DNA from: Bacteroidota bacterium
GTDB taxonomy: Bacteria > Bacteroidota > Bacteroidia > Chitinophagales > Saprospiraceae
Assembly (NCBI GenBank): GCA_020160935.1
Contig: JAIUPL010000027.1
Span: 1 to 64,000, forward strand
Length of the DNA: 64,000 bases
Reading direction: 5' to 3'
The notes under the pieces are model-generated. The model was not told the DNA's origin and made no database searches. It was given only the letters and a program-made list of their open reading frames with translations. The position numbers were made by a program, and so were the translations under genes. Shown piece by piece: positions 1,241-63,668 of this stretch (positions within the stretch are counted from its first letter, which is position 1; the number at the start of each line of letters is the position of its first letter).

Positions 1241-1606
1241 GAGGCTTCGCCTATTTTGATTTTTGTTCGGCTTCGCCTCCATAGATTTTTGTTCGGCTTC
1301 GCCTCACGGGGGGATTTGGGATTGGGCGGATGAAGCGGATAAAGCGGATTTTTGTGGCCTGACGGCCACTTATTTGTTTCTTTCTTTTTTGAAATTAAAA
1401 AAATAACGAATAACGAACACCGAATAACGAACAACAAAATAGTGCTCACTCAAAAATCAATCAAAAAAGTGGCCGTCAGGCCACAAAAATCCGCTTTATC
1501 CGCATAATCCGCCCAATCCAAAATCCCCCCGTGAGGCGAAGCCGAACAAAAATCTATGGAGGCGAAGCCGAACAAAAATCATTAGGCGAAGCCGAATAAA
1601 AAATCC
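1241..1606. repeat. Long inverted repeat, GGCGAAGCCGAAC-unit arms
   Basis: The left arm (about 1241-1372) and right arm (about 1472-1606) are reverse complements. Outer parts are tandem units of roughly 22 nt with the core GGCGAAGCCGAACAAAAAT. Inner parts pair AAGCGGATAAAGCGGATT with its complement and then TGGCCTGACGGCCAC with GTGGCCGTCAGGCCA. The AT-rich centre contains ATAACGAA direct repeats. The right end is only about 8 bp before the next start codon, so any promoter of that gene must lie in or before the element. Confidence 0.85.
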
Positions 1607-1613
1607 AATCTCT

Positions 1614-2963
1614 ATGCCCATCCCGCTCCTCCTCATCGACGACGAAGCGCCCCTCCGCTCCCTCCTGGCACGCATCCTGGGCCTGGAGCAGTATCAGGTG
1701 ACCGAGGCAGGCACGGCTAAAGACGCGTTGCGACTGCTGGAAAAGGAAGATTTCGCCGTCATCCTCTGCGATGTAAAACTCCCCGATGGCAATGGCGTGG
1801 ACCTCGTACCGCAGTTCAAAAAAATTCGCCCGACCAGCGAAATTATCCTGCTCACAGCATACGGCACCATTCCGGCAGGGGTGCAGGCCATTCAGCATGG
1901 CGCTTTCGATTACCTGACAAAAGGCGACGACAACGAGCGCATCCTGCCCGTAGTGAGTCGGGCTGCCGAAAAAGCCATGCTCCAGCGCCGCATCCTGCAA
2001 CTGGAAGAAAAAGTGGGCCGCAAATACCATTTCGACAATATGCTCGGACAGTCGGCCGCTCTCCTGCGCGCCGTCGACCTGGCCAAAAAAGTAGCGCCCA
2101 CCGATACCACTGTGCTGCTGACCGGCGAAACGGGCACCGGAAAGGAAGTTTTCGCCGAAGCCATTCACCAGGCCAGTCGCCGCAAAGGGCATACTTTCGT
2201 AGCCGTCAATTGCAGCGCGCTGGGCCGCGACATTCTGGAAAGTGAACTGTTCGGCCACAAAGCCGGGGCATTTACCGGCGCCGTACGCGATAAAAAAGGC
2301 CTGTTTGAAGAAGCCCACCAGGGCACTTTGTTCCTCGACGAGATTGGTGAAATGCCGCCCGAACTTCAGGCCAAACTCCTGCGCGCCCTCGAAACCGGCG
2401 AGTTTATGCGCGTGGGCGACACCAAAACAATTCGCACCGACGTGCGCATTATTGCCGCCACCAACCGCAACCTGCTGCAGGAAAGCAACGAAGGGCATTT
2501 CCGCTCCGACCTCTACTACCGTCTCTCCGTTTTTCATATTCAACTGCCGCCCCTGCGCGAACGCAGAGAAGATATTCCTGCACTGGCGGCGTTTTTCGCG
2601 CGTTTTTTTGCGGATAAAATGAATCGGCCCACGCCGGATTTGTCGCCCGATTTTTTGAAAAAACTGGCGGTTTACGACTGGAAAGGCAATATCCGCGAAC
2701 TCAAAAACGTGATCGAACGCGCCGTTATCCTCGCTGGCGATACCCTTACGCCCGACCTGCTGCCCGCCGAAATTCTTTTCGCTTCGGGCGAAGATGCCGG
2801 CCACTCTCCTTTCGACCTGGGTATTGCGGAAAAAAACCTGATCCATAAAGCCCTGCAACATACCAAAGGCAACAAAACCGAAGCAGCGCGCCTGCTGAAT
2901 ATCGGGCTGACGACATTGTATCGGAAAATTGAGGAACACGGGGAACACGGATGGCGCGGATAA
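1614..2963 (+). CDS. NtrC-type sigma-54-dependent response regulator
   Basis: Two-component regulator of 449 aa. It has a receiver domain (about 5-115, D9/D10 acidic pocket, phosphoacceptor D53), an AAA+ sigma-54 activation domain (Walker A GETGTGKE near 170, GAFTGA loop near 219, DEIGEMPP near 241) and a Fis-type helix-turn-helix (NKTEAARLLNIGLTTLYRK near 420). GAFTGA implies that it remodels sigma-54 polymerase. Its position just before the kdp genes, with an inverted repeat and a -24-like element between, suggests it replaces KdpE as kdp activator; that link is inference. The last residues (EEHGEHGWRG) are encoded by the left arm of the following repeat, so the native C-terminus may have been replaced. 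Confidence 0.93.
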   Translation: MPIPLLLIDDEAPLRSLLARILGLEQYQVTEAGTAKDALRLLEKEDFAVILCDVKLPDGNGVDLVPQFKKIRPTSEIILLTAYGTIPAGVQAIQHGAFDYLTKGDDNERILPVVSRAAEKAMLQRRILQLEEKVGRKYHFDNMLGQSAALLRAVDLAKKVAPTDTTVLLTGETGTGKEVFAEAIHQASRRKGHTFVAVNCSALGRDILESELFGHKAGAFTGAVRDKKGLFEEAHQGTLFLDEIGEMPPELQAKLLRALETGEFMRVGDTKTIRTDVRIIAATNRNLLQESNEGHFRSDLYYRLSVFHIQLPPLRERREDIPALAAFFARFFADKMNRPTPDLSPDFLKKLAVYDWKGNIRELKNVIERAVILAGDTLTPDLLPAEILFASGEDAGHSPFDLGIAEKNLIHKALQHTKGNKTEAARLLNIGLTTLYRKIEEHGEHGWRG

Positions 2964-3090
2964 AAAACGGATTTTCGCGGATTGGATGAGTGGCAGGAGG
3001 TATTAGAATAATTTCTTTGGCCCCTTACCACTCATCCAATCCGTGAAAATCCGTTTTTTATCCGCGCCATCCGTGTTTCCCGTGTTCCCC
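2931..3090. repeat. Inverted repeat with GGAACACGG / CGGATTTTCGCGG arms
   Basis: Left arm about 2931-2990 and right arm about 3031-3090 are near-perfect reverse complements around a loop of about 40 nt. Motifs are GGGGAACACGG, ATGGCGCGGATAAAAAACGG and GCGGATTGGATGAG. The left arm covers the stop codon of the regulator gene. A second copy of the family lies at 22650-22852. Confidence 0.88.
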
Positions 3091-3163
3091 GTTTTGAAAA
3101 TCCACCTTTCCATTTTGGTATGGTATGCGCCCTTCCTCACGCCATGCGCATATTGCCTAAACA

Positions 3164-3439: not shown

Positions 3440-3561
3440 GGGTTGATGAGTGTTGAGAGGTTGAAGGGTTGAGAGGTTGAGAGTTGAGATTGTAGCCTCT
3501 TGGCCTCACTGGTAGGAATGTACAACTCTCAACCCCTCAACCTCTCAACTCTCATCAACTC
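3440..3561. repeat. Heptad-armed hairpin element, GTTGAGR family (kdpF-kdpA spacer)
   Basis: Arms are tandem GGTTGAG/GTTGAGA units on the left and their complement (CTCAACC) on the right. The core runs from ATTGTAGCCTC through TTGGCCTCACTGGTAGGAATG to TACAAC. The same core occurs at 44723-44922 and 45752-45884. It ends 9 bp before the kdpA start and interrupts the kdp operon. Confidence 0.92.
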
Positions 3562-7331: not shown

Positions 7332-7666
7332 CGTGAGTTCGGCTATATTTTGATTGTAATGAAACTGAAAAAGAGATTCTGAAAGTGGAATCATCGTGCT
7401 ATACTGTACTTTTTCCTTGATGAAAAAGTACCAAAAAATCAAGGCTGTATTCAAATCCTACGATTTTGCTCTCCTTGGAAGCGGGTTCGCACCCAAACTC
7501 GGCCCACCTGCGGCGGGCCTCAAACATGGGTGCTCACTGCCGCTTCCAAGGGAGCAAAATCGGGATTTGAATAAGGCCGCCCGAACAAAACTTGGTCAAC
7601 GCATTGATTTTCAAATGTTTACACTGGATGAAGCGGGCGTATAATCCCGAACTCACGTTTATTTAA
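7323..7666. mobile_element. MITE-like insertion with 9-bp target duplication
   Basis: A 326-bp segment (7332-7657) starts CGTGAGTTCGG and ends CCGAACTCACG, a perfect 11-bp terminal inverted repeat. It is flanked by direct repeats TTTATTTAA at 7323-7331 and 7658-7666, as left by a transposase making 9-bp target duplications. No transposase fits inside. The interior holds a long imperfect hairpin (about 7449-7579) pairing ATTCAAATCC, CGATTTTGCTC and CTTGGAAGCGG with their complements around GGCCCACCTGCGGCGGGCC. It sits between kdpB and kdpC and could attenuate kdpC expression. Confidence 0.85.
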
Positions 7667-9379: not shown

Positions 9380-10519
9380 ATGGAAATTTTCAACGACCGC
9401 GATCGCGACGCTGCTGCCAATGAGTTTCTCGATCTGATCCGCCGCTCCCGACGCGGCAAATTCAAGGTGTACATCGGCATGTCGGCTGGCGTGGGCAAAA
9501 CCTACCGAATGTTGCAGGAAGCGCACGGTCTGTTACAAAATAAGGTGGATGTGAAAATCGGGTTTGTGGAAACCCACGGCCGTCTCGAAACCGAACAACA
9601 GTTGGCAGGATTGCCGCAGGTGCCACGCCGGAAACTGTTTTACAAAGGCAAGGAACTGGAAGAGATGGACTTGCAAGCCATTCTCAACCTGCATCCGGAA
9701 ATTGTAATCGTCGACGAACTGGCCCACACCAACATCGAAGGCAGCAAAAACGAAAAACGCTGGCAGGATGTGCTGGAACTGCTCGAAGCGGGCATCCACG
9801 TCATCAGCGCCGTCAACATTCAGCACCTGGAAAGCCTGAACAAGGATGTGCATCAAATCACCGGCATCGAGGTGCGGGAGCGTATTCCCGACCGCATTCT
9901 GCAATTGGCCGATGAAGTGGTGAACATCGACCTGACGGCCGACGAACTTGTGGCACGGCTGCGGGCTGGCAAGATTTATGCGCCGGAAAAAGTGGAAATT
10001 GCCCTGCAAAACTTCTTTCTACCGGAAAAAATCCTGCAACTCCGCGAACTGGCCCTGCGCGAAGTGGCGCATCAGGTGGAACGAAAAATTGAAGCGGAAA
10101 TCCCGAAAACCGGCCAGTTGCGCACCGAACGTTTCCTGGCTTGTATCAGCAGCAACGACGATACAGCCAAAACAGTGATCCGCAAAACCGCCCGCCTGGC
10201 CTCCTATTACGATGCACAGTGGATGGTGCTGTACGTGCAAACGCCTGCCGAAGAACCCGATAAAATCAACCTGGCGCTCCAGCGCCATTTGCTCCACAAC
10301 TTCAAAACGGCGATGGAACTGGGCGCCGAAATCATTCGGGTAAAAAGCCCGCATATTGCCCAAACCATTTTGCAGGTGACGGCCGAACGCGACATTACCA
10401 CCGTTTGTATCGGCAAACCGCACCTGAATTTGTGGCGCATCATTGTGAATACCAGCATTTTTAACCAATTGCTGACTGAGTTGTCGGGCAGCAAGGTGGA
10501 TTTGATTATACTATCTTAA
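9380..10519 (+). CDS. kdpD: KdpD N-terminal sensor module without kinase domain
   Basis: A 379-aa protein equal to the cytoplasmic N-terminal half of KdpD. The KdpD domain (about 25-235) contains Walker A GMSAGVGKT (33-41) and VDELAHTN (near 111). A universal-stress-protein-like domain (about 250-375) follows. The four membrane helices, GAF and histidine-kinase parts of classical KdpD (about 890 aa) are absent. In classical KdpD this half senses nucleotide and K+ status, so the protein may signal to the HAMP-PAS kinase encoded next; that partnership is inference from order. A heptad hairpin element lies between the two genes. Confidence 0.92.
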   Translation: MEIFNDRDRDAAANEFLDLIRRSRRGKFKVYIGMSAGVGKTYRMLQEAHGLLQNKVDVKIGFVETHGRLETEQQLAGLPQVPRRKLFYKGKELEEMDLQAILNLHPEIVIVDELAHTNIEGSKNEKRWQDVLELLEAGIHVISAVNIQHLESLNKDVHQITGIEVRERIPDRILQLADEVVNIDLTADELVARLRAGKIYAPEKVEIALQNFFLPEKILQLRELALREVAHQVERKIEAEIPKTGQLRTERFLACISSNDDTAKTVIRKTARLASYYDAQWMVLYVQTPAEEPDKINLALQRHLLHNFKTAMELGAEIIRVKSPHIAQTILQVTAERDITTVCIGKPHLNLWRIIVNTSIFNQLLTELSGSKVDLIILS

Positions 10520-10521
10520 AT

Positions 10522-10656
10522 AGTCCTGAGTCGTAAGTCCTGAGTCCTGAGTCTGTAGAGTACACGTTGTTACTATTGGCTATTATGGATTAGGATGCCA
10601 TGAGTATCAACGTGTACTCTACAGACTCAGGACTCAGGACTTACGACTCAGGACTT
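10522..10656. repeat. Heptad-armed hairpin element, GAGTCCT family
   Basis: Left arm of GAGTCCT/GAGTCGTAAGTCCT units, then GTAGAGTACAC, an inner imperfect stem and loop (TTGGCTATTATGG, TTAGGATGCC), then GTGTACTCTAC and the mirrored right arm. It ends 6 bp before the histidine-kinase start. Members of the same subfamily lie at 21511, 34060, 36199 and 43134. Confidence 0.93.
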
Positions 10657-10661
10657 TTCTT

Positions 10662-12400: not shown

Positions 12401-12576
12401 GAGGGTGAGAAATGTGAGAGAGTGAGAAGGTGAGAGAGTGAGAAGGTGAGAGAGTGAGAGTCCGTAGAGTGTACCACATTACTCATGGTAATTTTGATAA
12501 GAGCAATGTGGTACACTCTACGGACTCTCACCCTCTCACCCTCTCACTCTCTCACCTTCTCACTCTCTCACGCTCT
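12401..12576. repeat. Heptad-armed hairpin element, GTGAGAG family
   Basis: Arms of GTGAGAG/GTGAGAAG units are mirrored as CTCTCAC units. The centre has GTAGAGTGTACC pairing with GGTACACTCTAC and inner ACATT/AATGT, so the central stem resembles that of the GAGTCCT family. It lies between convergent genes and runs up to the stop codon at 12577. Confidence 0.92.
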
Positions 12577-13090: not shown

Positions 13091-13121
13091 AGAGGTGAGA
13101 GGTGAGAGGTGAGAGGGTCAG
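13091..13121. repeat. One-sided GTGAGAG heptad array
   Basis: Four GAGGTGA/GGTGAGA units lie between the two YedE-type genes with no inverted partner nearby. It looks like a half element or a precursor of a two-armed hairpin. Confidence 0.7.
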
Positions 13122-13734: not shown

Positions 13735-13870
13735 GTGTTTTAGTGTTTTGGTGTTTTTGTGTTTTTGAGGGGCTTCGCTTTCGGCTTTAAAAATCAATTT
13801 GGCCTATTTCATCCTACACCAAGAGCGAAGCACTTCAAAAACACAAAAACACAAAAACACTAAAACACTA
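13735..13870. repeat. Inverted repeat, GTGTTTT-unit arms with GCTTCGC core
   Basis: The left arm TTTTAGTGTTTTGGTG with TGTTTTT units is mirrored by AAAACACAAAAACAC units. The central stem is GGGGCTTCGCTTTC against AAGAGCGAAGCACTTC, imperfect. The partner family member is at 15334-15513. It lies between the rhodanese and YedE genes. Confidence 0.87.
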
Positions 13871-15333: not shown

Positions 15334-15513
15334 GTGTTTTTGTGTTTTGGTGTTTTTGTGTTTTAGTGTTTTGGTGGGCTTCGCTCTTGGTAATTATGGT
15401 TATGGTAAAGGAATTGCTCTGTAAACGCAATTAAAGGCATGAATTTGCCCCCTAATCCCGACGAGAGCGAAGCCCACCAAAACACAAAAACACCAAAACA
15501 CAAAAACACCCCC
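15334..15513. repeat. Inverted repeat, GTGTTTT-unit arms with GGGCTTCGCTC core
   Basis: Arms are GTGTTTTTGTGTTTTGG units and their mirror. The core stem GGTGGGCTTCGCTCT pairs with AGAGCGAAGCCCACC, with a central loop of about 75 nt. It starts at the base after one stop codon and ends at the base before the other, filling a convergent gap. Confidence 0.9.
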
Positions 15514-16931: not shown

Positions 16932-16945
16932 ATTTGGGATGTAGT

Positions 16946-17009
16946 GTTCGGCTTCGCCTCACTTTTTTATCCGCCCAATCCTGGATAAAATAGTGAGGCG
17001 AAGCCGAAC
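16946..17009. repeat. Short hairpin, GTTCGGCTTCGCCTCACT arms
   Basis: An 18-bp perfect inverted repeat (16946-16963 and 16992-17009) has an inner TTTTATCC/GGATAAAA stem. The arm sequence is the same as the unit at 1241-1606, so this is a minimal member of that family. Convergent-gene position suggests a bidirectional terminator. Confidence 0.85.
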
Positions 17010-17017
17010 CTCCATTC

Positions 17018-17629
17018 CTATCCTTTTTCAAAAACAAAAAAATCAGAAACGCTCCGATCCCGATGCGGATTCTCCACGCGTTGTCGAAGCACCCAACCCT
17101 CCGGCACATCAGCACTGAAACGGCGCTGCCGGAAATGCGGGAACATTCCTTTTCCCTTTTCCTCTTCGTCGGAGGAAAAAATAATCACCCAGCGACTCGA
17201 CAATGCAAACAGGTGCTGCATGTAAAGTAAATAGAGCCGTTCCTCGGTGAGGTGAAAGATGACTTCCAGCGAAATAGCCAGATCTGCCTGAAACGATGCC
17301 GACACAAAACAATCCGGGTCGTACACTTCAAACTGTTTAGTACGATCTTCCGAAAACAGGGCTTCGCAACGCTCCACTGCGGAGGCTGCAATATCCAGTC
17401 CGATATATTTCGGGTATTCAGCCAGATTTAATTGCCTTCCATCTCCGCAGCCCAGTTCCATGACGGAATCAATGGAGTGTTCCTGCACAAATGTGTTCAA
17501 AAAATTTGCTTTGTATGCCGCCAATACCCCTCCCGAACCAGCGCCGGAATCGCCTCCATCACTATATCGCCGCTCCCAGTAGCGTCGGCTGCCAGGGTAA
17601 AAAAGGTGTTTTAGAAATGTGAGGAACAT
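17018..17629 (-). CDS. Class I SAM-dependent methyltransferase
   Basis: Protein of about 203 aa with motif I ELGCGDGRQL and the acidic residue after strand 2 (YIGLDIA), as in class I SAM methyltransferases. The substrate is not identifiable. I start at MFLTFLKHLF (17629). The open frame continues upstream, but those residues (MPLASLNFASC...) are translated repeat sequence. It ends close to the hairpin at 16946-17009. Confidence 0.85.
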   Translation of the reverse strand: MFLTFLKHLFYPGSRRYWERRYSDGGDSGAGSGGVLAAYKANFLNTFVQEHSIDSVMELGCGDGRQLNLAEYPKYIGLDIAASAVERCEALFSEDRTKQFEVYDPDCFVSASFQADLAISLEVIFHLTEERLYLLYMQHLFALSSRWVIIFSSDEEEKGKGMFPHFRQRRFSADVPEGWVLRQRVENPHRDRSVSDFFVFEKG

Positions 17630-18094: not shown

Positions 18095-18388
18095 CAAGAG
18101 GCAAGGGGCAAGAGGCAAGGGGCAAGAGGCAAGGGGCAAAGAGCAAGAGGCAAGGGGCAAAGAGCAAGGGGCAAGAGGCAAAGGGCAAAAATTTACAACA
18201 GCATAAACATAAGCCGGCCTTTTACCTTCGCCCTTTGCCCCTTGCCCCTTGCCCCTTGCCCTTTGCTCTTTGCCCTTTGCCCTTTGCCCCTTGCCCTTTG
18301 CTCTTTGCCCTTTGCCCCTTGCCCTTTGCTCTTTGCCCTTTGCCCCTTGCCCTTTGCTCTTTGCCCCTTGCCTCCTGCCCTTTGCCCC
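18095..18388. repeat. Heptad-armed hairpin element, GGCAAGR family
   Basis: About 12 left units (GGCAAGA/GGCAAGG/GGCAAAG) face a longer right arm of about 25 TTGCCCY/TTGCTCT units around a centre of about 45 nt containing ATAAGCCGGCCTTTTACC. Arm lengths are unequal. The right arm ends at the stop codon of pbpC. Confidence 0.92.
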
Positions 18389-45605: not shown

Positions 45606-45640
45606 AGGTGAGAAGTGAGAAGCGAGAGGTGAGAAGTGAT
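45604..45640. repeat. One-sided GTGAGAA heptad array
   Basis: Five units of GAGGTGA/GAAGTGA/GAAGCGA follow the ATPase stop codon with no mirrored arm. Confidence 0.7.
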
Positions 45641-46572: not shown

Positions 46573-46850
46573 ACAAGAGGCAAGGGGCAAAAAGCAAGAA
46601 GCAAAAGGCAAGGGACAAGAGGCAAGGGGCAAGAGGCAAGGGACAAGAGGCAAGGGGCAAGAAGCAAACGGGAAGGGGCAGAACCAGTCAATTGCACAAA
46701 TCCATTTGTCAACCACTTTGCCCCTTGCCTTTTGCCCCTTGCCCCTTGCCTTTAGCCACTTTGCCACTTTGCCCCTTGCCCCTTGCCCCTTGCCCTTGCC
46801 TCTTGCCCCTTGCCTCTTGCCCCTTGCCTTTTAAAAAATTGCCTCTTTAA
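46573..46850. repeat. Heptad-armed hairpin element, GGCAAGR family
   Basis: About a dozen GGCAAGR-type left units (including AAGCAAG variants) and as many TTGCCCC/TTGCCTY right units enclose a centre with CAATTGCACAAATCCATTTG. It lies between ATPase and permease genes of one operon. Confidence 0.92.
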
Positions 46851-46871: not shown

Positions 46872-49256
46872 ATGTTCAACAACTATCTGCTCATTGCATT
46901 CCGCAATTTGCGGAAAAACAGCACTTATACACTGCTGAATATTTTAGGGCTCGGGCTGAGTATTGCCTGTTGCATTGTCATTTTTCTGATGCTGCAGTAC
47001 CACCTCAGTTTTGATGCGTACCACAGCAGGGCGGATCGCACCGTACGGGTTGTTACCGACGTGCATATGGAAAGCATCACACCTTTCCGGGGCGCGCCCA
47101 ATCCGATGTCGAAAGCCCTGCGAACGGAATTTTCATTTTTGGAAAATGTGGCGATGTATGCTACCCGTGCGGAGGCTCTGATCAGTGTGCCGGGCACTTC
47201 AGGTATTCCCGACAAGTACAAGGAAGAGGACAAATTTGCTTTTGTAGAACCTGAATTGTTTGGTATTCTGGATCTTCCGCTGTTGCAGGGCGACGCCAAG
47301 GCACTTGCGGAACCCAATACAGCGCTCATTACCGAAAATCTGGCCCGCAAATACTATGGAACGATTGATGCGGTGGGGAAAACGTTTCGATACGACAACA
47401 AGGTGGATTTTCGAGTGGCAGGTATCCTGCGCAATTTGCCCGTCAATACGGATTACAACAGCGAAATTCTGGCTTCCTGGGCTACGCGCGCTTCCATGTC
47501 GGAGTACAGCCCGTTCATGGATAACTGGGGCGGCATGAATGGCGGCACTTATTGCCTGGCAACCTTTCGCGAAGGGCACCGGCAGTCGGAACTGGAGGCT
47601 GCCATACCCGAATTCAGGAAAAAATACCGGCATCCGGAAAGTGAAATGCTGTTTTTATACAAGCCTTTGCCGCTTACCAGCATCCACCTCAATAACGATT
47701 ACAACACCGGTATGATGAAGAAAAGTTACCTGTGGGCGCTGGCCCTGATCGGGTTTTTTCTGTTGATCACGGCCTGTGTCAATTTTATCAATATGGCTAC
47801 CGCGCAAGCGCTCAAACGCGCCAGAGAAGTGGGCGTGCGGAAATCGCTGGGCAGCACGCAGGGGCAATTGTTTTGGCAGTTTATTTTTGAAACTGCCCTG
47901 ATCGTAGTGGCGGCTGTCGTGATTGGATGGGTAATGGCACGGATTTTCCTTCCCTATCTGAATACCTGGACCAAGGATCAGGTTGAATGGACGGGCACGG
48001 ATTTGAAGATGTTGATAGCGTTTTTACTGGCTTTGAGTGTGGTCATCATTTTCCTGGCCGGCGCCTATCCCGGGTTGGTGCAGGCGCGTTTCAAGCCGGC
48101 GGTTTCGTTGCGCGGCCTGGCAGAAACCAAACCTGCAGGCGGCTTTTCCCTACGACGTATGCTGGTAACCACACAATTCACCATTTCCCAGATTCTCATC
48201 ATCGGAGCAGCGGTGGTGACTGCCCAGATCGAGTTTGCGCGCAATGCCGACTGGGGTTATCGCCCGGGTGTGGTGTTCACGGTGCCGGTGCCCGATACCG
48301 ATCATATGAAATCCCTGAAACAAGAGATCGCCTCCATTGCAGGGGTAAAAAACGTGTCGTTGTGCTACCAGCCGCCGGCCTCCAGTTCCAACAACCAAAA
48401 CGGCGTGCAATTTGAAAACCGAAGTGCAGGCGAGCCATGGGCAGTTAATTTCAAACCTGCCGATGCCGATTACCTCGAAACCTTTGGTCTGCAACTCGTA
48501 GCCGGCCGAAACGTGATGCCCTGCGATACGGTTCGGGAATACGTTGTAAATGAAACCTTTGTAAAAAAACTCAACCTCGCTGGCCCGCCAGAAATTCTCA
48601 ACCGCTCTGTCAATATCGATGGAATAAAAGGGACAATTGTGGGCGTGGTGCGCGATTACCACAACTGGGAATTGTCGCAGGATATTTCGGCCATCGCTTT
48701 TTCCACCCGTTCATCCTCTTATTCCAACTGCGCCATCGAACTGATGCCAGGCAATCCGGCGCCGGTGATGGAGCAGATCAAACAGGTATGGGAGCGCAAT
48801 TACCCTGAGTACTACTACGAACATACGTTTATGGATGAACGCATGGCGCAGTTCCTCGAATCGGAAAGCATCATCATGAACCTGATTCGCATTTTTGCCG
48901 GCATCGCCATCTTCATCGGCTGCCTGGGCTTGTACGGACTGGCTTCGTTTATGATTTTGCGTAAAACCAGGGAAATCGGTATTCGGAAAACACTCGGCGC
49001 CAGTGTACCCGGAATTCTGTGGCTGTTCGGACGCGAATATATTCGCCTGATTCTGGTGGCTTTTGTTATCGCTACGCCGATGGCATGGTGGGCCATGAAC
49101 GCCTGGTTGCAAGAATATGCCTATCGAACAACATTAGGTCCCGGCATCTTCGCTTTTGCGCTGGCCATGACATTTGTAGTGGCGTTATTGACGGTGGGTA
49201 TTCAGAGTGCGCAGGCGGCGCTGGCGAATCCGGTGAAGAGCCTGAATAGAGAGTGA
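46872..49256 (+). CDS. FtsX-type ABC exporter permease (MacB-like)
   Basis: Membrane protein of 794 aa. It has an N-terminal helix after LLIAFRNLRKNSTYTLLNILGL, a large periplasmic MacB-PCD domain (about 45-270) and three helices (about 285-400, RAREVGVRKSLGSTQGQL). A second duplicated half has a helix near 430, another periplasmic domain, and final helices with TREIGIRKTLGASVPGILWL. The two EVGVRKxLG/EIGIRKTLG motifs mark the FtsX coupling regions. With the adaptor and ATPases it should form a tripartite exporter; the substrate is unknown. Confidence 0.93.
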   Translation: MFNNYLLIAFRNLRKNSTYTLLNILGLGLSIACCIVIFLMLQYHLSFDAYHSRADRTVRVVTDVHMESITPFRGAPNPMSKALRTEFSFLENVAMYATRAEALISVPGTSGIPDKYKEEDKFAFVEPELFGILDLPLLQGDAKALAEPNTALITENLARKYYGTIDAVGKTFRYDNKVDFRVAGILRNLPVNTDYNSEILASWATRASMSEYSPFMDNWGGMNGGTYCLATFREGHRQSELEAAIPEFRKKYRHPESEMLFLYKPLPLTSIHLNNDYNTGMMKKSYLWALALIGFFLLITACVNFINMATAQALKRAREVGVRKSLGSTQGQLFWQFIFETALIVVAAVVIGWVMARIFLPYLNTWTKDQVEWTGTDLKMLIAFLLALSVVIIFLAGAYPGLVQARFKPAVSLRGLAETKPAGGFSLRRMLVTTQFTISQILIIGAAVVTAQIEFARNADWGYRPGVVFTVPVPDTDHMKSLKQEIASIAGVKNVSLCYQPPASSSNNQNGVQFENRSAGEPWAVNFKPADADYLETFGLQLVAGRNVMPCDTVREYVVNETFVKKLNLAGPPEILNRSVNIDGIKGTIVGVVRDYHNWELSQDISAIAFSTRSSSYSNCAIELMPGNPAPVMEQIKQVWERNYPEYYYEHTFMDERMAQFLESESIIMNLIRIFAGIAIFIGCLGLYGLASFMILRKTREIGIRKTLGASVPGILWLFGREYIRLILVAFVIATPMAWWAMNAWLQEYAYRTTLGPGIFAFALAMTFVVALLTVGIQSAQAALANPVKSLNRE

Positions 49257-49453
49257 GAGATGTGAGAGGGTGAGAGCGTGAGAGATGTGAGAGCGTGAGA
49301 GTACGTAGAGTTGACCGCTTCGCCACAAAAATTGAAATTAAAAGAGCGAAGCGGTCAACTCTACGTACTCTCACCCTCTCACATCTCTCACGCTCTCACT
49401 CTCTCACTTCTCTCACTCTCTCACTTCTCTCACGCTCTCACTTCTCTCACGCT
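49250..49453. repeat. Heptad-armed hairpin element, GTGAGAG family with GAAGCGG core
   Basis: GTGAGAG units (left) and CTCTCAC units (right, longer) enclose GTACGTAGAGTTGACCGCTT, CGCCACAAAAATTG, AAAAGAGCGAAGCGG and the mirror of the first block. The core recurs almost unchanged but inverted at 54692-54877. It overlaps the stop codon of the permease gene. Confidence 0.94.
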
Positions 49454-51706: not shown

Positions 51707-51957
51707 GAAAGGGCAAGGGGCAAGGGGCAAGGGGCAAGAGGCAAAGGGCAAGGGGCAAAAGGCAAGAAGCAAGAGGCAAAGGGGCAAGATGCAAGACGCA
51801 AAAAGCAAAAGGCAAATTCTATCTGTAAAATTGCCCCTTGCTTTTTTGCCTCTTGCCCCTTGCCTTTTGCCCCTTGCTTCTTGCCCTTTGCCCCTTGCCC
51901 TTTGCCTCTTGCCCCTTGCCCTTTGCCTTTTGCCCTTTGCCCCTTGCCCTTTGCCCT
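51707..51957. repeat. Heptad-armed hairpin element, GGCAAGR family
   Basis: About 14 GGCAAGR/GGCAAAA left units and about 16 TTGCCCY right units enclose AATTCTATCTGTAAAATT. The right arm reaches the stop codon of the WYL gene. Confidence 0.92.
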
Positions 51958-53248: not shown

Positions 53249-54691
53249 ATGAAACGCACTACCCAGACACCGATCCCCATCACCGGAAAAGACCTGCTGA
53301 CGCTGGGCTTCAGCGAAGGGAAAACCATCGGTCTGGCCCTCGAAATAATCGCAGGTCCGCTGGCCACTGAAACCAAACAACGCACCCTGACCCTGCTCAA
53401 ACGCGTTCGGAAAAATCCCGAATCGTACCTCGACGACGCAGCACTGGCTCCGCTGGCCGCCGCCCTGATCGAAGCCGCGCAGGCACAGGTAGATACCACT
53501 ATTCCATTGAAAGAAACCACTGATTCATACGCCGTTTTCGGAAAAGATCAGATCGAAGAAGGCGCCCTCAACCAGATGAACATAGCCATGAAACTTCCGG
53601 TAACGATCGCCGGGGCCCTGATGCCGGATGCGCATCAGGGCTACGGACTGCCGATCGGCGGGGTGCTGGCTACCAAAAATGCCGTCATTCCGTATGGCGT
53701 CGGCGTCGACATCGGTTGCCGTATGGCGTTGTCCGTGTTCGATATTCCCGAAAAACACTTCTTCGACCACCGGTCGACCTACAAGCGCGAACTGATTGCC
53801 CATACGGCTTTCGGCGCCGGAAACGGTTTCCGCGGCCAGGATCGCGCCTACCACCAGGTGCTCGATCGCAAGGAATTCGAGATGAACGGCCTGCTGCGCG
53901 GTCTGAAAGACAAGGCTTTTGCCCAATTGGGCTCTTCCGGCGGCGGTAACCACTTTGTAGAATGGGGCATTATCGATTTTGAAGAAAAAGACGAGGCGCT
54001 GGGCGTGGAAAAAGGCCGTTACCTCGCACTCCTGACGCATTCAGGTTCGCGTGGACTCGGCGCTACACTTGCCGGACACTACACCCGCATCGCCAAAGAC
54101 TTGTGCAAATTGCCGCAACATGCTGCCAACCTGGCTTACCTCGACCTCGACAGCGAGGCCGGGCAGGAGTACTGGCTGGCCATGAACCTCGCCGGCGATT
54201 ATGCCTCGGCCTGCCACGAGGTGATCCATCGCCGGCTGACCAAGGCCATCGGCGCCAAGGTGCTGGCCAGCGTGGAAAACCACCACAATTTCGCCTGGAA
54301 GGAAACCCTGAACGGCGAAGAGGTGGTCGTGCACCGCAAAGGCGCTACGCCGGCCGGGAAAGGGGTGATGGGCATCATTCCGGGTTCCATGACCGCACCG
54401 GGGTTTCTGGTGCGCGGAAAAGGAGAGGTTTCCTCGATCCACTCCGCTTCACATGGCGCCGGGCGTCAGATGAGCCGCACCCAGGCCATCAAAAACGTAT
54501 CGAAAAACGAACTGCGCACCCTCCTGCAGGATATGGGCGTCACGCTGATCGGTGGGGGCCTCGACGAAGCGCCGATGGCCTACAAAAACATTCACCAGGT
54601 CATGGCTTCCCAGCAGGAACTGGTAGATACCGTTGCCCGCTTTACCCCGAAAATGGTGAGAATGGCGGATGATGGAAGCAGAGAAGATTAA
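53249..54691 (+). CDS. rtcB: RNA 3'-phosphate/2',3'-cyclic phosphate ligase RtcB
   Basis: RtcB joins RNA ends bearing 2',3'-cyclic phosphate or 3'-phosphate to 5'-OH, using GTP and Mn2+. This 480-aa protein has the metal cysteine in VDIGCRM (about 155-161), SGGGNHFVEWG, THSGSRGLG and the guanylylated histidine motif SHGAGRQMSR (about 401). I start at MKRTTQTPIP (53249), after the -7 box. It is divergent from a WYL regulator and followed by tRNA-like RNA and slipin sequences, an arrangement indicating RNA or tRNA repair after damage rather than constitutive processing (inference). No rtcA or archease gene is present. Confidence 0.96.
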   Translation: MKRTTQTPIPITGKDLLTLGFSEGKTIGLALEIIAGPLATETKQRTLTLLKRVRKNPESYLDDAALAPLAAALIEAAQAQVDTTIPLKETTDSYAVFGKDQIEEGALNQMNIAMKLPVTIAGALMPDAHQGYGLPIGGVLATKNAVIPYGVGVDIGCRMALSVFDIPEKHFFDHRSTYKRELIAHTAFGAGNGFRGQDRAYHQVLDRKEFEMNGLLRGLKDKAFAQLGSSGGGNHFVEWGIIDFEEKDEALGVEKGRYLALLTHSGSRGLGATLAGHYTRIAKDLCKLPQHAANLAYLDLDSEAGQEYWLAMNLAGDYASACHEVIHRRLTKAIGAKVLASVENHHNFAWKETLNGEEVVVHRKGATPAGKGVMGIIPGSMTAPGFLVRGKGEVSSIHSASHGAGRQMSRTQAIKNVSKNELRTLLQDMGVTLIGGGLDEAPMAYKNIHQVMASQQELVDTVARFTPKMVRMADDGSRED

Positions 54692-54877
54692 CAGAGCGTG
54701 AGAGCGTGAGAGATGTGAGAGATGTGAGAGAGTGAGAGATGTGAGAGTACGTAGAGTTGACCGCTTCGCTCTTTTAATTTAATTTTTATGGCAAAGCGGT
54801 CAACTCTACGTACTCTCACATCTCTCACATCTCTCACGCTCTCACCCTCTCACATCTCTCACACTCTCTCACATCTA
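54692..54877. repeat. Heptad-armed hairpin element, GTGAGAG family (inverted core)
   Basis: GTGAGAG/GTGAGAT units and CTCTCAC units enclose GTACGTAGAGTTGACCGCTT, CGCTCTTTTAATTTAATTTT and the mirror. The loop is the reverse complement of that at 49250-49453, so the same core is installed in the opposite orientation. Confidence 0.94.
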
Positions 54878-55021: not shown

Positions 55022-55084
55022 GAGGATGTAGCTAAGTGGTATAGCAACACTTTTGTGATTGCAGGTTCGAATCCTGCCCGGCGC
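55022..55084 (+). ncRNA. tRNA-like fragment 2 (tRNA-His-like, anticodon arm incomplete)
   Basis: GAGGATG-TA-GCTA-AGTGGTA-TAGC resembles acceptor, positions 8-9 and D-arm. TTTTGTGAT is like a His (GUG) anticodon loop, and GCAGG-TTCGAAT-CCTGC is a perfect T-arm. Only 15 nt separate D- and T-arms where about 23 are needed, so the 3' half of the anticodon stem and the variable loop are missing. The acceptor strands do not pair. It reads as a tRNA mimic or degraded tRNA, not a functional gene. Confidence 0.6.
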
Positions 55085-55085
55085 G

Positions 55086-55128
55086 TTGTCGGTAGCATAA
55101 TGGTTAATGCACTGGACTTTTAATCCAC
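55086..55128 (+). ncRNA. tRNA-like fragment 3 (tRNA-Lys(UUU)-like 5' part)
   Basis: TTGTCGG-TA-GCAT-AATGGTTA-ATGC has acceptor-like and D-arm features, followed by anticodon arm TGGA-CTTTTAA-TCCA with anticodon UUU. No T-arm follows directly. However, TGTCGGTAGC (55087-55096) is perfectly complementary to GCTACCGACA (55229-55238), next to a GGTTTCGAC segment, so a distant 3' half may exist. Confidence 0.5.
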
Positions 55129-55166
55129 CACCATCAAAAGAAGGGTAACTTTTAAAAATAGCCCGC

Positions 55167-58108: not shown

Positions 58109-58289
58109 TGTTATTAAGTTATTGGTTATTAAGTTATTGGTTATTAAGTTATTGGTTATTAAGTTATTAGGGGTGGGTAAGGGTTTTTGAGTTCATTCAT
58201 CTTGGCATCCCTATTCAAGAAGCCAGGATGAATGAACTCAAAAACCCTTACCCACCCCTAATAACTTAATAACCAATAACTTAATAACA
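58109..58289. repeat. Heptad-like hairpin element, TTATTAAG/TTATTGG family
   Basis: Units TTATTAAG and TTATTGG alternate. The core stem GGGTAAGGGTTTTTGAGTTC is followed by ATTCATCTTGGC, the loop ATCCCTATTCAAGAA and the mirror. The loop is nearly the reverse complement of that at 60641-60810. Confidence 0.93.
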
Positions 58290-58373
58290 AAAAGGCAGGC
58301 CGGACATTTCGCCCAACCCGCCAATAACCCTAAAAAACCAAATGAAAAGATTTTTCAGACGTCTGTCTATATT

Positions 58374-58997: not shown

Positions 58998-59690
58998 ATG
59001 AAAACAGTATTCATGACCGGCGGCACCGGTTACCTCGGTTCGAGGCTTGCCCAACAACTGCTCAAACGCGGGCATCAGGTTATCCTGTTTGTGCGACCCG
59101 AATCTGCGCACAAGGCCCCGGCAGACGCCATCGTTGCCACCGGCAACCTGTTCGACCCTGTGGCCATGTGCCCCTTTATCCCTGAAAACAGCGTGTTCGT
59201 GCAACTGCTCGGCGTTCCGCACCCCTCGCCGCGCAAACGCGACCTGTTTTACAAAATCGACCTGGAATCGGTAAAAGCCTCCGCTTTAGCCGCCCGACTG
59301 GCGGGCGCAGGGCATTTTGTGTACGTAAGCGTGACACAGGAACCTACCCGCATCATGCACGACTACCAGCAGGTGCGGGCGCAAGGCGAAGGCTACATCC
59401 GCCAAACGGGCCTGATGCACACCTTCATTCGTCCCTGGTACGTGCTGGGGCCGGGGCACTGGTGGCCGCTGCTGCTATGGCCTTTGTACAAAATACTGGG
59501 ATGGCTGCCCGCCTCGCGCCGCAAAGCGCGTGCGCTGGGCCTGGTTAGTCTACGGCACATGCTAAACGCATTGCTGCTGGCCGTAGAACAACCCGAACAA
59601 CTGCCCGAGGTGCTGGAAGTGCCTGATATCCGCAAATTTGGCGGTCGGAAGGCTGAGGCACAGGTGGTGGTGGTTCCATCGGGTGTGTAG
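58998..59690 (+). CDS. NAD(P)-dependent epimerase/NmrA-like protein
   Basis: Short-chain-dehydrogenase-fold protein of 230 aa with the dinucleotide motif TGGTGYLGSRLAQQLL (about 7-22). VYVSVTQEP replaces the catalytic YxxxK region, as in atypical NmrA-like or quinone-oxidoreductase-subunit-like members. The substrate is unknown. The last codon overlaps the start of the palindromic repeat. Confidence 0.85.
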   Translation: MKTVFMTGGTGYLGSRLAQQLLKRGHQVILFVRPESAHKAPADAIVATGNLFDPVAMCPFIPENSVFVQLLGVPHPSPRKRDLFYKIDLESVKASALAARLAGAGHFVYVSVTQEPTRIMHDYQQVRAQGEGYIRQTGLMHTFIRPWYVLGPGHWWPLLLWPLYKILGWLPASRRKARALGLVSLRHMLNALLLAVEQPEQLPEVLEVPDIRKFGGRKAEAQVVVVPSGV

Positions 59691-59780
59691 ATTTGACAAC
59701 TTTTTGAAAGTTGTCAAATCTTAAAACCGATGCATCGTCTGAAACCCAGATTTGACAACTTTCAAAAAGTTGTCAAATCT
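59689..59780. repeat. Inverted pair of 33-nt palindromes, GATTTGACAACTTT type
   Basis: AGATTTGACAACTTT-N3-AAAGTTGTCAAATCT occurs at 59689-59721 and, reverse-complemented, at 59748-59780 with a 26-nt spacer. Each copy is itself a hairpin, so two alternative structures are possible. It overlaps the ends of both convergent genes. Confidence 0.92.
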
Positions 59781-60633
59781 CCAAAAAGTCCCTTACGGCC
59801 CGCACCACCGACGAATGCTGCATGCGGTGGCCGTGTTCCTGCGTTTCGATATACGCTGCGCCCCAGCGTTCAGCCAGCAGTCGACCTTCTTCCACGGGCG
59901 CCACATCGTCGTGTTCGTCGTGCATCACAAGGCCTTGTACGTCGCTGAGCAGGGTGATTTTTTGCGCGACGGAATATTCGTGTATCGGAATGCCGCCCTG
60001 CCGTTCTATTTCATGAAACACGCGCTGGATCACGGTTTCATTGGCGCCGATGTACCCGCTGAAATCGCGGATGACGCGTTCTGTTTCTGCAAAGGCAGCC
60101 AACAGCACCATTTTTTCGGGTCGGGGGCCGCCCAGCAGTGCAGCGCTCATCACGGCCGCGCCACCGCCGAGTGAATGCCCTACCACGGCGTAGAAATGGC
60201 CTTTTTCTTCGAGGAATTGTTTGACAACCTTGCTGAATAGCAGCACATTGAGCCGATCGCCGCCGGAAAGTCCGCTGCGTGGCGCATCGAACGCCCACAC
60301 CTGAAACCCTTTTTTCCGCAAGGCTTTGATGTATTGTCGCCAGCGCGCTGAGTTGGATTCCCAGCCATGCAGAAACAGCACTTGACGGCCATTGCCCTCC
60401 CCGGTCGGCTCCCAGCGATAGGTGCTGATGGGCATTCCTTCAGCCTGCCACATCGGCTGCTGCGCTGCCAGCAGGAAATTTTTATCCTGCACATCCATCG
60501 GCTTTCGGCGCGGACTGCAAAACAGCCGAAACGTGAGCCGCCCTGCCATCGCCGGCGACATGCGCGACAAGGCATTGAGGCTCCGGCCAAGGTTGCGGAG
60601 TTTGCGAAGGGTGGAGGGGGAGAAATGCCGCAT
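59773..60633 (-). CDS. Alpha/beta hydrolase
   Basis: Hydrolase of 286 aa with cap-less alpha/beta fold features: oxyanion region VLFLHGWESNSARW, nucleophile elbow GHSLGGGAAVM, acid in VMHDEHDDVAPVEE and the catalytic histidine in EHGHRMQHS. It is a probable esterase or lipase of unknown substrate. Its final two codons lie in the 33-nt palindrome. Confidence 0.88.
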   Translation of the reverse strand: MRHFSPSTLRKLRNLGRSLNALSRMSPAMAGRLTFRLFCSPRRKPMDVQDKNFLLAAQQPMWQAEGMPISTYRWEPTGEGNGRQVLFLHGWESNSARWRQYIKALRKKGFQVWAFDAPRSGLSGGDRLNVLLFSKVVKQFLEEKGHFYAVVGHSLGGGAAVMSAALLGGPRPEKMVLLAAFAETERVIRDFSGYIGANETVIQRVFHEIERQGGIPIHEYSVAQKITLLSDVQGLVMHDEHDDVAPVEEGRLLAERWGAAYIETQEHGHRMQHSSVVRAVRDFLEI

Positions 60634-60640: not shown

Positions 60641-60810
60641 TTGGGTTATTAAGTTATTGGTTATTAAGTTATTGGGGAGGGGTAAGGGTTTATTTCTTCA
60701 TTTGATTTGGCTTCTTCAATATGGATACCAAGATGTATGTACTAACAAACCCTTACCCCTCCCCAATAACTTAATAACCAATAACTTAATAACTCAACAA
60801 CCAATAACTT
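60641..60810. repeat. Heptad-like hairpin element, TTATTAAG/TTATTGG family
   Basis: The left arm TTATTAAGTTATTGG and the longer right arm enclose GGGGAGGGGTAAGGGTTT, then a loop with TTTGGCTTCTTCAATATGG and ATACCAAGATG. The loop is the reverse complement of the 58109 copy at most positions. Confidence 0.93.
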
Positions 60811-61742: not shown

Positions 61743-61774
61743 ATTGGAATGGTGTAATGGTTAGAGCCGCAAAA

Positions 61775-61890
61775 GTAGAGGTGAGAAGTGAGAAGTGAGA
61801 GGTGAGAGGTAAGAATTTGTGAGTATGATACCACTCAGCCCTCTCTTGCCTCTCACCTCTCACTTCTCACCTCTTACTTCTCACTTCTAA
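61775..61890. repeat. Heptad-armed hairpin element, GTGAGAA/GTGAGAG family
   Basis: GAGGTGA/GAAGTGA units on the left and their mirror on the right surround AATTTGTGAGTATGATACC, without an obvious extra stem. It lies in the divergent spacer of lpxD and the glycoside hydrolase gene, 33 bp before the latter. Confidence 0.9.
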
Positions 61891-61923
61891 ATTTACGTAC
61901 ATTTACCGCAAAACCAGTCTTTT

Positions 61924-63552
61924 ATGAAACAACACACTCAATTCCCTGTTTTTGCGCTTTTTTTGGGTATTTTTTTGCTGTCACAAAATGTATATGGACA
62001 GCGGCCGCCGGCTGCGCCGGTGGCAGAGATGCGTGGCGCGTGGATTGCCACCAGTTTTAACATCGACTGGCCATCAAAACCCGGCTTGTCGATCGATCGA
62101 CAGAAAGTAGAGTTCGACAGCCTGCTCGATGTGTTGAAGGCCATGAATATGAATGCGGTATTTGTACAGGTGCGGCCTTCAGGCGATGCCATGTATCGCT
62201 CGCCCAACGTGCCCTGGAGCAAATTCCTGATGGGCCAGCAAGGCGTTGCCCCCCCGGATTCCACCTACGATCCGATGCAATACATGATAGAAGCGGCGCA
62301 CAGGCGCAGGATGGAGTTTCATGCATGGCTGAACCCGTACCGCGCCACGCTCGACCTGGATACGGCTGCTTTGTCGCCCCTGCACCCGCTGCGTTCGTTG
62401 CCCGACAACCGCAAAGCGCAGTGGTTTTTCCGTTATGGCCGGCGTTATTATTTTAACCCCGCCAACCCCTCTGTTCAGCAATATCTGGTGAATGTGGTGA
62501 AAGACATCGTGCTGCGCTACGATGTGGATGGCATCCATTTCGACGACTATTTCTATCCATACAAAGAGGCAGGTGAAACACTGAACGACTACAATGAATT
62601 TGCTTCTGACCCGCGCGGCTTTTCTACCATTGAAGACTGGCGCCGCGACAATGTCAGCCGACTGGTTTCGGCGGTGTCTGCCAATATCCACAAACTCAAA
62701 CCTTATGTGCGTTTCGGGATCGGGCCTTTCGGGGTATGGCGCAACCGCGATCAGGATCCGGTGATGGGTTCGGATACCCGCGCAGGCGTTACCTGCTATG
62801 ACGATTTGTATGCCGACGTGTTGCTATGGCTGAAAAACGGCTGGATCGATTATGTGGCGCCTCAACTGTACTGGAGCATCGGTTTTGTGCCCGCCGATTA
62901 TGAGAAACTCGTAGACTGGTGGAGCAAAAACACCTATGGAAAGCAGTTGTACATCGGCCATGCAGCCTATAAAATCAACAACGCCCCCAACGATGTGAAC
63001 TGGACACGCCCCGATGAGATCAAACGCCAGATTCAAATGAATCGCAGCAATCCGAACGTCAGCGGCAGCATCTTTTTTTCCACCAAACCACTGCTCAGGA
63101 ATCCGCTGGGCGTGCAGGATTCCCTGATCAACGACCTGTTTAAAACGCAGGCGCTGGTGCCGCCTGTGGCCAGTTTGTCGAAAATGCCGCCCGCTACCCC
63201 GCAGATATGCCGCATAGAAGGTTCGCCGAGTTCGGTGCGCCTGGCCTGGAATATCTGCGATGTGATCGCTGCCGAACAAATGCCTTATTACTTTGCTATC
63301 TACCGCTTTCAGGGGGAGGCGGTGGGTGACTTTCGCAATCCGCGTAACCTGCTCGCTACGACAGCATTTAATGCAGATGCTGACAAATGGACCTACGAGG
63401 ATCAGACGGCGGTAGAAGGCGAATATTACACGTATGTTGTCATGGCGTTCAACCGCCCGAATGTGCAGAGTTACAGCAGCGCCCCTGTTTTTGTGAAAAA
63501 AACGGCAAGTACGGCAAAACGGAAGAAGAAGATATTTGGGTACCTTTTTTAG
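61924..63552 (+). CDS. Glycoside hydrolase, GHL10/DUF187 type, secreted
   Basis: Exported protein of 542 aa. A signal peptide (about 1-24, QNVYGQ) precedes a TIM-barrel-like GHL10 (PF02638-type) domain (about 35-380) with EMRGAWIATSFNIDWPS, NMNAVFVQVRPSGDAMY, DGIHFDDYFYPY (putative acidic pair near 201) and DYVAPQLYWSIGF. A fibronectin-like C-terminal module (about 420-525) follows. Relatives act on peptidoglycan or other glycans; the exact substrate is uncertain. Confidence 0.9.
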   Translation: MKQHTQFPVFALFLGIFLLSQNVYGQRPPAAPVAEMRGAWIATSFNIDWPSKPGLSIDRQKVEFDSLLDVLKAMNMNAVFVQVRPSGDAMYRSPNVPWSKFLMGQQGVAPPDSTYDPMQYMIEAAHRRRMEFHAWLNPYRATLDLDTAALSPLHPLRSLPDNRKAQWFFRYGRRYYFNPANPSVQQYLVNVVKDIVLRYDVDGIHFDDYFYPYKEAGETLNDYNEFASDPRGFSTIEDWRRDNVSRLVSAVSANIHKLKPYVRFGIGPFGVWRNRDQDPVMGSDTRAGVTCYDDLYADVLLWLKNGWIDYVAPQLYWSIGFVPADYEKLVDWWSKNTYGKQLYIGHAAYKINNAPNDVNWTRPDEIKRQIQMNRSNPNVSGSIFFSTKPLLRNPLGVQDSLINDLFKTQALVPPVASLSKMPPATPQICRIEGSPSSVRLAWNICDVIAAEQMPYYFAIYRFQGEAVGDFRNPRNLLATTAFNADADKWTYEDQTAVEGEYYTYVVMAFNRPNVQSYSSAPVFVKKTASTAKRKKKIFGYLF

Positions 63553-63668
63553 AGGGATGAGTTATGAGTTATGAGTTATGAGTTATACTCACGTTGCTAT
63601 CGGTTACTCTAAAGAAGATACCGATAGCAACGTGAGTATAACTCATAACTCATAACTCATAACTCTAA
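63551..63668. repeat. Heptad-armed hairpin element, GAGTTAT family
   Basis: Three or four GAGTTAT units and four mirrored units enclose ACTCACGTTGCTATCGGT, the loop TACTCTAAAGAAGA, and the mirror TACCGATAGCAACGTGAGT. It begins on the stop codon of the hydrolase gene. Confidence 0.94.

Follow-up and report, generated by a model that had tools for sequence, protein, structure and literature searches.

What keeps long, nearly perfect hairpins at the ends of bacterial genes? The question is raised by the first 64,000 nucleotides of contig JAIUPL010000027.1 of a Saprospiraceae bacterium (assembly GCA_020160935.1), here called the window, in which many intergenic gaps carry two-armed hairpins, most of them with tandem arrays as arms. 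An initial annotation made from the sequence had described these elements as a superfamily that fills most intergenic spaces and arises by one 7-nt mechanism. They are best read as non-coding palindromic repeats, dispersed over the ends of genes and forming a population specific to the lineage, and comparison with the closest relative, G035, suggests that hairpin sites persist while their sequences change.

Long hairpins occupy many intergenic gaps

The window was analysed together with 400 kb from two other contigs (464 kb in all) of the 5.84-Mb draft genome. Gene coordinates were taken from a purpose-made gene caller, whose start sites are rough and which omitted an open frame without Pfam match at 20857-21489. 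A hairpin was defined as a gapped hairpin alignment scoring at least 40, and the best one was kept for each gap of at least 25 nt.

Hairpins were detected in 26 of the 46 window gaps, which bears out the approximately 25 announced initially. In the two other stretches (200 kb each), the counts were 37 of 116 and 38 of 134. The whole sample had a long inverted repeat in 101 of 296 gaps, at a density of about 22 per 100 kb, so that the elements fill most intergenic spaces in the window but not in the sampled genome. After dinucleotide shuffling, none of the 296 gaps reached the threshold, the top score being 27.

The elements span about 65-425 nt. Tandem Repeats Finder placed mirrored 7/8-nt arrays where they had been named from the window sequence, and an inverted-repeat finder returned 204 pairs in the window, the 25 longest with arms of 71-130 nt and 76-96% complementarity. 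About 93% of the aligned positions in the hairpins were complementary, and the arms are indeed reverse complements; the 7% arm mismatch is a lower bound, as local alignment favours matching arms.

Arms are tandem arrays of many classes

Tandem arms, taken as a self-match run of at least 10, were present in 74 of the 101 hairpins compared to 4 of 101 after shuffling; the other 27 had none by this test. The best lag in the 74 was a multiple of 7 in 42 cases, of 8 in 12 and of 10 in 4, and the remaining 16 best lags were 12, 15, 17, 22, 25, 26 or 29, of which some add up two lengths, for example 7+8. Unit length is centred on 7 rather than scattered, as had been expected, but the presence of 8-nt, 10-nt and mixed units leaves a single 7-nt mechanism unsupported as stated.

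Cyanobacterial short tandemly repeated repetitive (STRR) sequences are also intergenic heptanucleotide tandem arrays, each a single direct array without a mirrored arm. The 7-nt mode and the existence of one-armed arrays would fit ordinary short tandem repeats that grow by STRR-like slippage and pair by chance. However, slippage alone makes no inverted arm, whereas here inverted arms occur in 101 gaps against none after shuffling, 74 of them with tandem arms, and the cores are mirrored as well, which makes this explanation very improbable.

The array classes were defined on 209 sequences selected as hairpins from eight chosen genomes, with patterns set by the analyst. Nineteen array-class patterns were distinguished, with 35 hairpins matching none and 10 matching two or more, in agreement with the claim that many unrelated classes are built into two-armed hairpins. 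The core GTAGMGT accompanies six array classes, or seven with AGTCGAC taken as distinct from AGTCCTG; AGTCGAC matches overlap the AGTCCTG pattern, and one pure AGTCGAC case was read. Cores other than GTAGMGT are mostly confined to one class, so that the sharing of cores stands for GTAGMGT but not for most others. A universal apex motif, TTGG[CTA], was dropped because it was present in 39 of the 209 hairpins compared to 27.1 expected from shuffled tips. With most cores class-specific and the apex motif so little above the shuffled level, the term superfamily does not hold.

Two compositional properties were assayed in 195 hairpins from four chosen genomes (this genome, G035, G006 and G023). On both strands, the 5' arm was rich in G and the 3' arm in C, with a mean GC skew of the 5' arm of +0.38 (147 elements positive, 38 negative). 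By class, 13 of 19 were positive and none was below -0.14 (class sign test p=0.17). A like skew was present in short inverted repeats scoring 24-39 (26 positive and 6 negative of 38) and was absent from canonical terminators (21 positive and 29 negative of 56). Stop codons read from the outside inwards were more frequent than the comparison value (0.077 vs 0.042 per nt), but in only 12 of 19 classes, and no such property is claimed.

Hairpins lie next to stop codons

The elements had been reported between genes of every orientation. All three kinds of gap are indeed occupied, but unevenly: 38 of 54 convergent, 49 of 181 co-directional and 14 of 61 divergent gaps, so that convergent gaps and stop codons are favoured. 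The median distance from stop codon to hairpin edge was 4 nt, and 25 nt was not exceeded in 93 of the 125 stop-hairpin pairs. In 40 of the 49 co-directional gaps, the hairpin lay closer to the upstream stop. Only one of the 102 hairpins scoring at least 50 in the 464-kb sample lay wholly within a called gene.

Such a placement would also suit bidirectional RNA 3'-end elements, either terminators or exonuclease barriers, for which any class would serve, selection keeping a hairpin while the classes swap. The occupancy of convergent gaps and the closeness to upstream stops favour this explanation, whereas the occupied divergent gaps and the one element found in frame within a coding gene do not. 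In convergent gaps, canonical terminators were somewhat rarer with an element (13 of 38) than without (8 of 16; p=0.36), as replacement of terminators by elements would have it. In co-directional gaps, however, a canonical terminator was present in 20 of 48 gaps with an element compared to 24 of 131 without, showing no substitution.

Arm symmetry at the level of DNA

A stem required in the RNA would be expected to carry more G.U pairs (G.T in DNA) than A.C on the sense strand. In co-directional elements (49 here and 25 in G035), 91 G.T and 109 A.C were counted (p=0.23), and for all orientations, with the plus strand used where sense is undefined, 197 and 193. Canonical terminators, found without credit for G.U, had 34 G.U vs 10 A.C in this genome's gaps. 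Over all six sets their totals were 96 vs 54; coding DNA is included in every set other than this genome's gaps, and the values for G013/G014 by themselves were 11 vs 11. The elements differed from this genome's terminators (Fisher p=1.9e-4) and from all sets (p=7.7e-4). No T-tail followed the hairpins either, with 2.2 T in 8 nt against a background of 2.25, and at least 6 T in only 3 of 125 cases. The elements lack both the T-tract and the G.U tolerance of intrinsic terminators, which agrees with the initial view that they are not just terminators and weighs against an RNA 3'-end role. The arms behave as a DNA palindrome, with no sign of selection for RNA pairing.

The two arms differ at 7.1% of aligned pairs, compared to 35% at four-fold sites between this genome and G035 (87 gapless gene matches). 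Renewal of arms or of entire elements has therefore taken place since this genome and G035 diverged. In family A of the GTAGAGT elements (32 elements), the inner 8 nt were more alike between the arms of one element (identity 0.836) than between elements (0.669; permutation p=2e-4), and in family L (8 elements, also GTAGAGT) the outer arms were mirrored (0.968 vs 0.625). In four-way arm alignments of the 30 ortholog pairs of the same class, 184 columns were concerted and 10 crossed, while 85 followed the ortholog, 341 were single and 172 other. Concerted arm changes without RNA constraint, as expected from template switching, are present in these elements. Comparison of the 30 ortholog loops, in which loops below 8 nt received a score of 0 and loop boundaries follow from the alignment, gave 24 without clear similarity, 3 similar in forward and 3 in reversed orientation.

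Turnover at syntenic sites

G035, with 87% DNA identity, is collinear with the window, 48 of the 49 called genes being matched in order. Altogether, 138 of the 296 gaps were anchored in its sampled part (44 of 46, 61 of 116 and 33 of 134), and hairpins were called of the same class when their alignment score was at least 36 or the normalised score above 0.6. Thirty gaps held the same class in both genomes, 2 were unsure and 71 had no hairpin in either. The comparison of close genomes that had been suggested for detecting gain or loss of whole elements does reveal it (11 gaps with a hairpin here only, 5 in G035 only), but it also reveals class swaps, in 19 gaps.

When same-class gaps were excluded, G035 had a hairpin in 21 of the 32 gaps occupied here compared to 5 of the 76 empty here (p=3.6e-10), or in 19 of 32 against 5 of 76 when the unsure cases were counted as unfilled (p=1.0e-8). 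The excess was also present when gaps shorter than 100 nt were left aside (20 of 30 vs 5 of 48, p=3.2e-7) and for co-directional gaps alone (12 of 19 vs 3 of 51, p=1.5e-6); in convergent and in divergent gaps alone, refilling was not significant (p=0.06 each).

The elements of the window are listed below, none with an assigned strand; scores are those of the hairpin alignment.

1243-1593: hairpin of the GTTCGGCTTCGCC class in a co-directional gap, score 230
2939-3082: hairpin of the CGGAT-repeat class, score 100
3442-3559: hairpin with GTTGAGR arms and core GTAGCCTCTTGGC, score 59, outside the best-per-gap list
7448-7573: non-tandem palindrome, with a different palindrome in G035 (hairpin scan and G035 comparison)
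10519-10658: hairpin with (AGTCCTG)n arms and GTAGAGTACAC core, same class in G035, score 104
12414-12571: hairpin with GTGAGAG arms and GTAGAGTGTACC core, other class in G035, score 127
13091-13116: one-armed AGAGGTG array without mirror arm (Tandem Repeats Finder), hairpin score 6
13735-13868: hairpin with GTGTTTTG (8-nt) arms and GGCTTCGC core (repeat finder and hairpin scan)
15342-15509: hairpin with GTGTTTTG arms, spacer inverted relative to G035 (hairpin scan and loop comparison)
16936-17018: hairpin of the GTTCGGCTTCGCC class; G035 has a shorter GGTCGGCAGGGTTT hairpin, score 36
18095-18370: hairpin with GGCAAGR arms, score 120
21487-21694: hairpin with AGTCCTG arms and GTAGAGT core, the palindrome extending to both flanking start codons
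22712-22847: weak hairpin of the CGGAT class, score 39, outside the best-per-gap list
26039-26211: hairpin with GGCAAGR arms, TTTGAATCAGGATT class in G035
28864-28934: hairpin with AGTCCTG arms, in frame in the NIF3 gene, score 59, outside the best-per-gap list
29949-30112: non-tandem palindrome (hairpin scan)
34053-34203: hairpin with AGTCCTG arms and GTAGAGTACACC core, score 119
36197-36341: hairpin with AGTCCTR arms and GTAGAGTACACC core, score 102
43135-43254: hairpin with AGTCCTG arms and GTAGATTACACC core in a divergent gap, score 73
44722-44854: hairpin with GTTGAGR arms, the right array longer than the left (repeat finder and hairpin scan)
45604-45639: one-armed AGAAGTG array (Tandem Repeats Finder)
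45766-45849: hairpin with GTTGAGR arms, score 40
46574-46826: hairpin with GGCAAGR arms; the G035 gap is 24 nt long and without hairpin
49248-49421: hairpin with GTGAGAG arms and GTAGAGTTGACCGCTTCG core, score 137
51708-51938: hairpin with GGCAAGR arms; only a one-armed array in G035
54685-54876: hairpin with GTGAGAG arms and GTAGAGTTGACC core, other class in G035
58137-58291: hairpin with GTTATTGG/GTTATTAAG arms; G035 has another class and an adjoining leftover AATAACC array
59686-59783: non-tandem palindrome in a convergent gap (hairpin scan)
60641-60797: hairpin with GTTATTGG arms and GGGGTAAGGG core
61773-61886: hairpin with GTGAGAAG arms in a divergent gap
63559-63665: hairpin with GAGTTAT arms and CTCACGTTGCT core, GTTATTAG class in G023

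The GTTGAGR elements have GTAGCC cores when read by eye. Two weak Rfam tRNA matches, and no other Rfam match, lay at 55028-55138 in a long gap; these are possibly degraded or unusual tRNA genes, and no tRNA was detected there by ARAGORN.

Individual gaps document the exchange of classes. In the gap at 26020, this genome has GGCAAGR and G035 TTTGAATCAGGATT, and more distant relatives differ again: AATGATG arms were read by eye in G006, whose score is inflated by a run of N, a CGGAT array in L036 reaches just 33, and L037 scores 14. The scores of L039 in this gap are inflated by N. This genome and G035 have one half of the core in common at C24:147046, the left one, with AGTCGAC arrays here and AGTCCTG in G035, and at C17:83579 only the apex is shared and the arrays differ.

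Elements are also found within or beside one another. The G035 counterpart of 1243-1593 is of the same class and has a CTTTGTG element nested in its loop, and C24:127455 is built of shells of different classes, one inside another. G035 has a GTAGAGT element at C24:174424, next to the right arm of the GTTATTGG element by which this gap is occupied in the present genome, and at window 58095 the AATAACC array has been retained in G035 beside another element. Mirroring extends to the flanks of 21487-21694, in this genome and in part also in G035, with a different mirrored portion in each.

The number of arms changes as well. Two arms are present at 51605 and 73238 here and a one-armed array in G035, with the reverse at C17:125290. 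The most telling place for element change is the conserved NIF3 gene (28476-29327, minus strand; PF01784 E=6e-81), which has an in-frame insert of 22 residues here, within an AGTCCTG hairpin with 32-pair arms. In G035 the in-frame insert is of 18 residues and nearly a one-armed array (hairpin score 16), and the orthologs in the three relatives L036, L037 and L039 have none.

The refilling of occupied sites by other classes is also expected from RNA 3'-end elements, as is the gap at 63552, where four genomes keep hairpins of two array classes. In contrast, G035 has no hairpin at 46570 and 110988. On the evidence from both sides, we regard the RNA 3'-end explanation as unlikely; a secondary benefit at 3' ends is possible.

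Distribution among relatives

The density scan was run without gene calls on genus genomes that include drafts; windows with more than 5 N were skipped and one all-N hit in L039 was dropped. Hairpins per 100 kb amounted to 22.0 here (464 kb), 23.1 in G035 (298 kb), 41.8 in G006 (36 kb), 45 in G023 (20 kb), 37 in L037 (13 kb) and 10 in L036, and ranged from 0 to 10 in 17 other congeners (19-80 kb each). No hairpin was returned for two other families (57 and 60 kb), for L040 (20 kb) or for 100-kb stretches of E. coli and of Trichormus plasmid A, the latter being the only cyanobacterial replicon covered. The GTAGAGTRYACC matches, with arms counted singly, numbered 296 here, 282 in G035, 58 in G006, 53 in G023, 22 in G038 and 0-7 in nine low-copy congeners.

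High copy numbers of this kind, set against those of the nine congeners, could point to families mobilised by transposases, similar to miniature inverted-repeat transposable elements (MITEs) or repetitive extragenic palindromes (REPs), each class being moved by an enzyme as an already symmetric unit and the diversity of classes reflecting many enzymes. REPs are reported to lie mainly between convergent and unidirectional genes (PMC3733652), which favours this explanation. One non-tandem class also favours mobility: the palindrome at G000:C17:178921-179081, of the AGAGCGTGTTTTAATTTCAG class, has no counterpart in G035 and shows a likely 5-bp TTAGA target duplication (C17:178898), so it appears MITE-like. 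However, no clear target duplication was found for the heptamer elements in the 10 of 16 one-genome-only gaps that were aligned, and rewriting of arms and arrays at fixed loci is not simple transposition. A plasmid search with the 34040-34210 element gave no match.

The search for a transposase covered the Y1_Tnp family, with only two matches in the genome. One Y1 gene (L061 2332-2577, G000:C29) is flanked by GTAG-tagged palindromes, GTAGTTGGCGAGGACGCCAACTAC, none of which occurred in the 464-kb sample; this appears to be a REP system of the classic kind and a separate one. A short distance upstream of the second Y1 gene, L060 6521-6690 (G000:C42:24521-24690) holds a one-sided 10-nt array, ACATACGAAT, and a palindrome (C42:24580-24680, score 79, non-tandem), parts of which recur two to three times in the sample. 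This proximity favours transposase families, whereas the repeats at both Y1 genes, read over a few kb around each, belong to none of the 19 array classes, though they may be linked to the palindrome population. Mobilisation of symmetric units by transposases is, in our judgement, unlikely.

Proposed mechanism and candidate enzymes

The reading that we favour, and hold to be just on the probable side, is that of lineage-specific gene-end palindromes that are re-symmetrised by template switching, expanded by slippage, and swapped or nested. The arms would stay mirrored because one is copied from the other during replication, by template switching at a quasi-palindrome, and the same event could convert a one-armed array into a hairpin. 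Slippage would expand and homogenise the 7-, 8- and 10-nt units. New palindromes may land in, nest within or replace old ones, so that the class at a site would change without the site ceasing to be palindromic. Elements would be left mostly just past stop codons because those that harm genes or promoters are selected against, and purifying selection alone can account for such a placement. Arm-to-arm copying by template switching, including spacer inversion, has precedents in the available parts of two reports (PMC8794818 and PMC8604942).

Several observations weigh against the palindrome-renewal reading. Site persistence and adjacency to stop codons also fit a function. Replacement by another copy would equally yield concerted columns, and most loops are unrelated, so whole-element replacement may explain much of the symmetry without copying in place; just one strong spacer inversion was found (window 15333). 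The inner stretch of GTAGAGT family L has no mirror (0.328 vs 0.435), and the 85 ortholog-following and 341 single columns indicate that arms also drift. One-armed loci could be arm losses, and the palindrome close upstream of a Y1 gene is a further point on this side.

In a bolder form, advanced tentatively, gene-end palindromes would be permanent rewriting sites: arrays would be born one-armed, gain a mirror by snap-back copying, change class concertedly and nest, the site being inherited and the sequence not, perhaps permitted by loss of a hairpin-cutting nuclease. Neither SbcD (TIGR00619) nor the SbcC Walker B domain (PF13558) was matched in this genome. Among 41 genomes (this one and 40 congeners), 38 were scored with some match to each, and SbcD was above the cut-off in 5 (G021 only with neighbours in frame). 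The three sampled among these 5, G008, G012 and G043, have 1, 0 and 0 hairpins in 40, 80 and 19 kb. Loss of SbcCD as a cause was set aside as at best permissive, since most low-density congeners likewise have no full-score SbcD and G046, with no SbcD match, has 0 hairpins in 20 kb. Reverse transcriptase was also rejected as a candidate: with 4 matches here and 0 in G035, G006, G023 and G038, it did not correlate with density.

Comparison with known systems

Long palindromes are usually regarded as unstable in bacteria, and this genome keeps about 22 per 100 kb despite the expected instability. The persistence of sites with exchanged sequence is also a warning that paired changes alone are no proof of a functional RNA.

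Gene-end intergenic palindromes, heptamer arrays and template switching are already known separately. Two-armed heptamer hairpins, or the union of inherited sites with exchanged sequences, did not appear among the matches listed from the open-licence literature, as far as the available parts of those sources go; the comparisons below are limited in the same way.

The elements resemble REPs, bacterial interspersed mosaic elements (BIMEs) and the REPINs (REP doublets forming hairpins) associated with REP-associated tyrosine transposases (RAYTs) (PMC3733652, PMC3116915, PMC2817692) in being scattered intergenic palindromes that lie downstream of genes, for the most part where these are convergent or unidirectional, and they share the 3'-biased intergenic location. 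However, REPs are 20-40 bp long and tagged at one end by GTAG or CGTC, whereas the elements here span ~65-425 nt with mostly tandem arms. The GTAGMGT core that goes with six or seven of the 19 classes has GTAG in each of its arms, and GTAG is also part of the GTAGCC cores read by eye in GTTGAGR elements; the other classes are without it. Unlike REPs, they also come in many classes that exchange at one site.

TAACTGA heptamers have been described in Beggiatoaceae, Cyanobacteria and Bacteroidetes; of the sets reported for the main genome, 169 are direct and one is inverted, and most precede start codons (PMC4679880). These are also intergenic heptamers, but here both arms are arrays around a core, at stop codons. 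The BrickBuilt MITE of Porphyromonas gingivalis (PMC4596501), another Bacteroidota element, similarly has a tandem repeat within an inverted-repeat element. It is, however, one family with a 23-nt unit and 19 copies in one strain, with small inverted ends around the array instead of mirrored arrays.

The closest likeness in process is to quasi-palindrome template-switch mutation (PMC8794818, PMC8604942, PMC3820800), in which arms are homogenised, spacers inverted and perfect stems made in one event. How perfect hairpins arise is a question posed for RNA genes (PMC8794818), and the reports concern single loci, RNA genes and yeast coding genes, whereas here the process would act at many dispersed tandem-armed sites. 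If the arms are renewed by template switching, this genome would be a natural laboratory for the origin and persistence of perfect hairpins without RNA selection.

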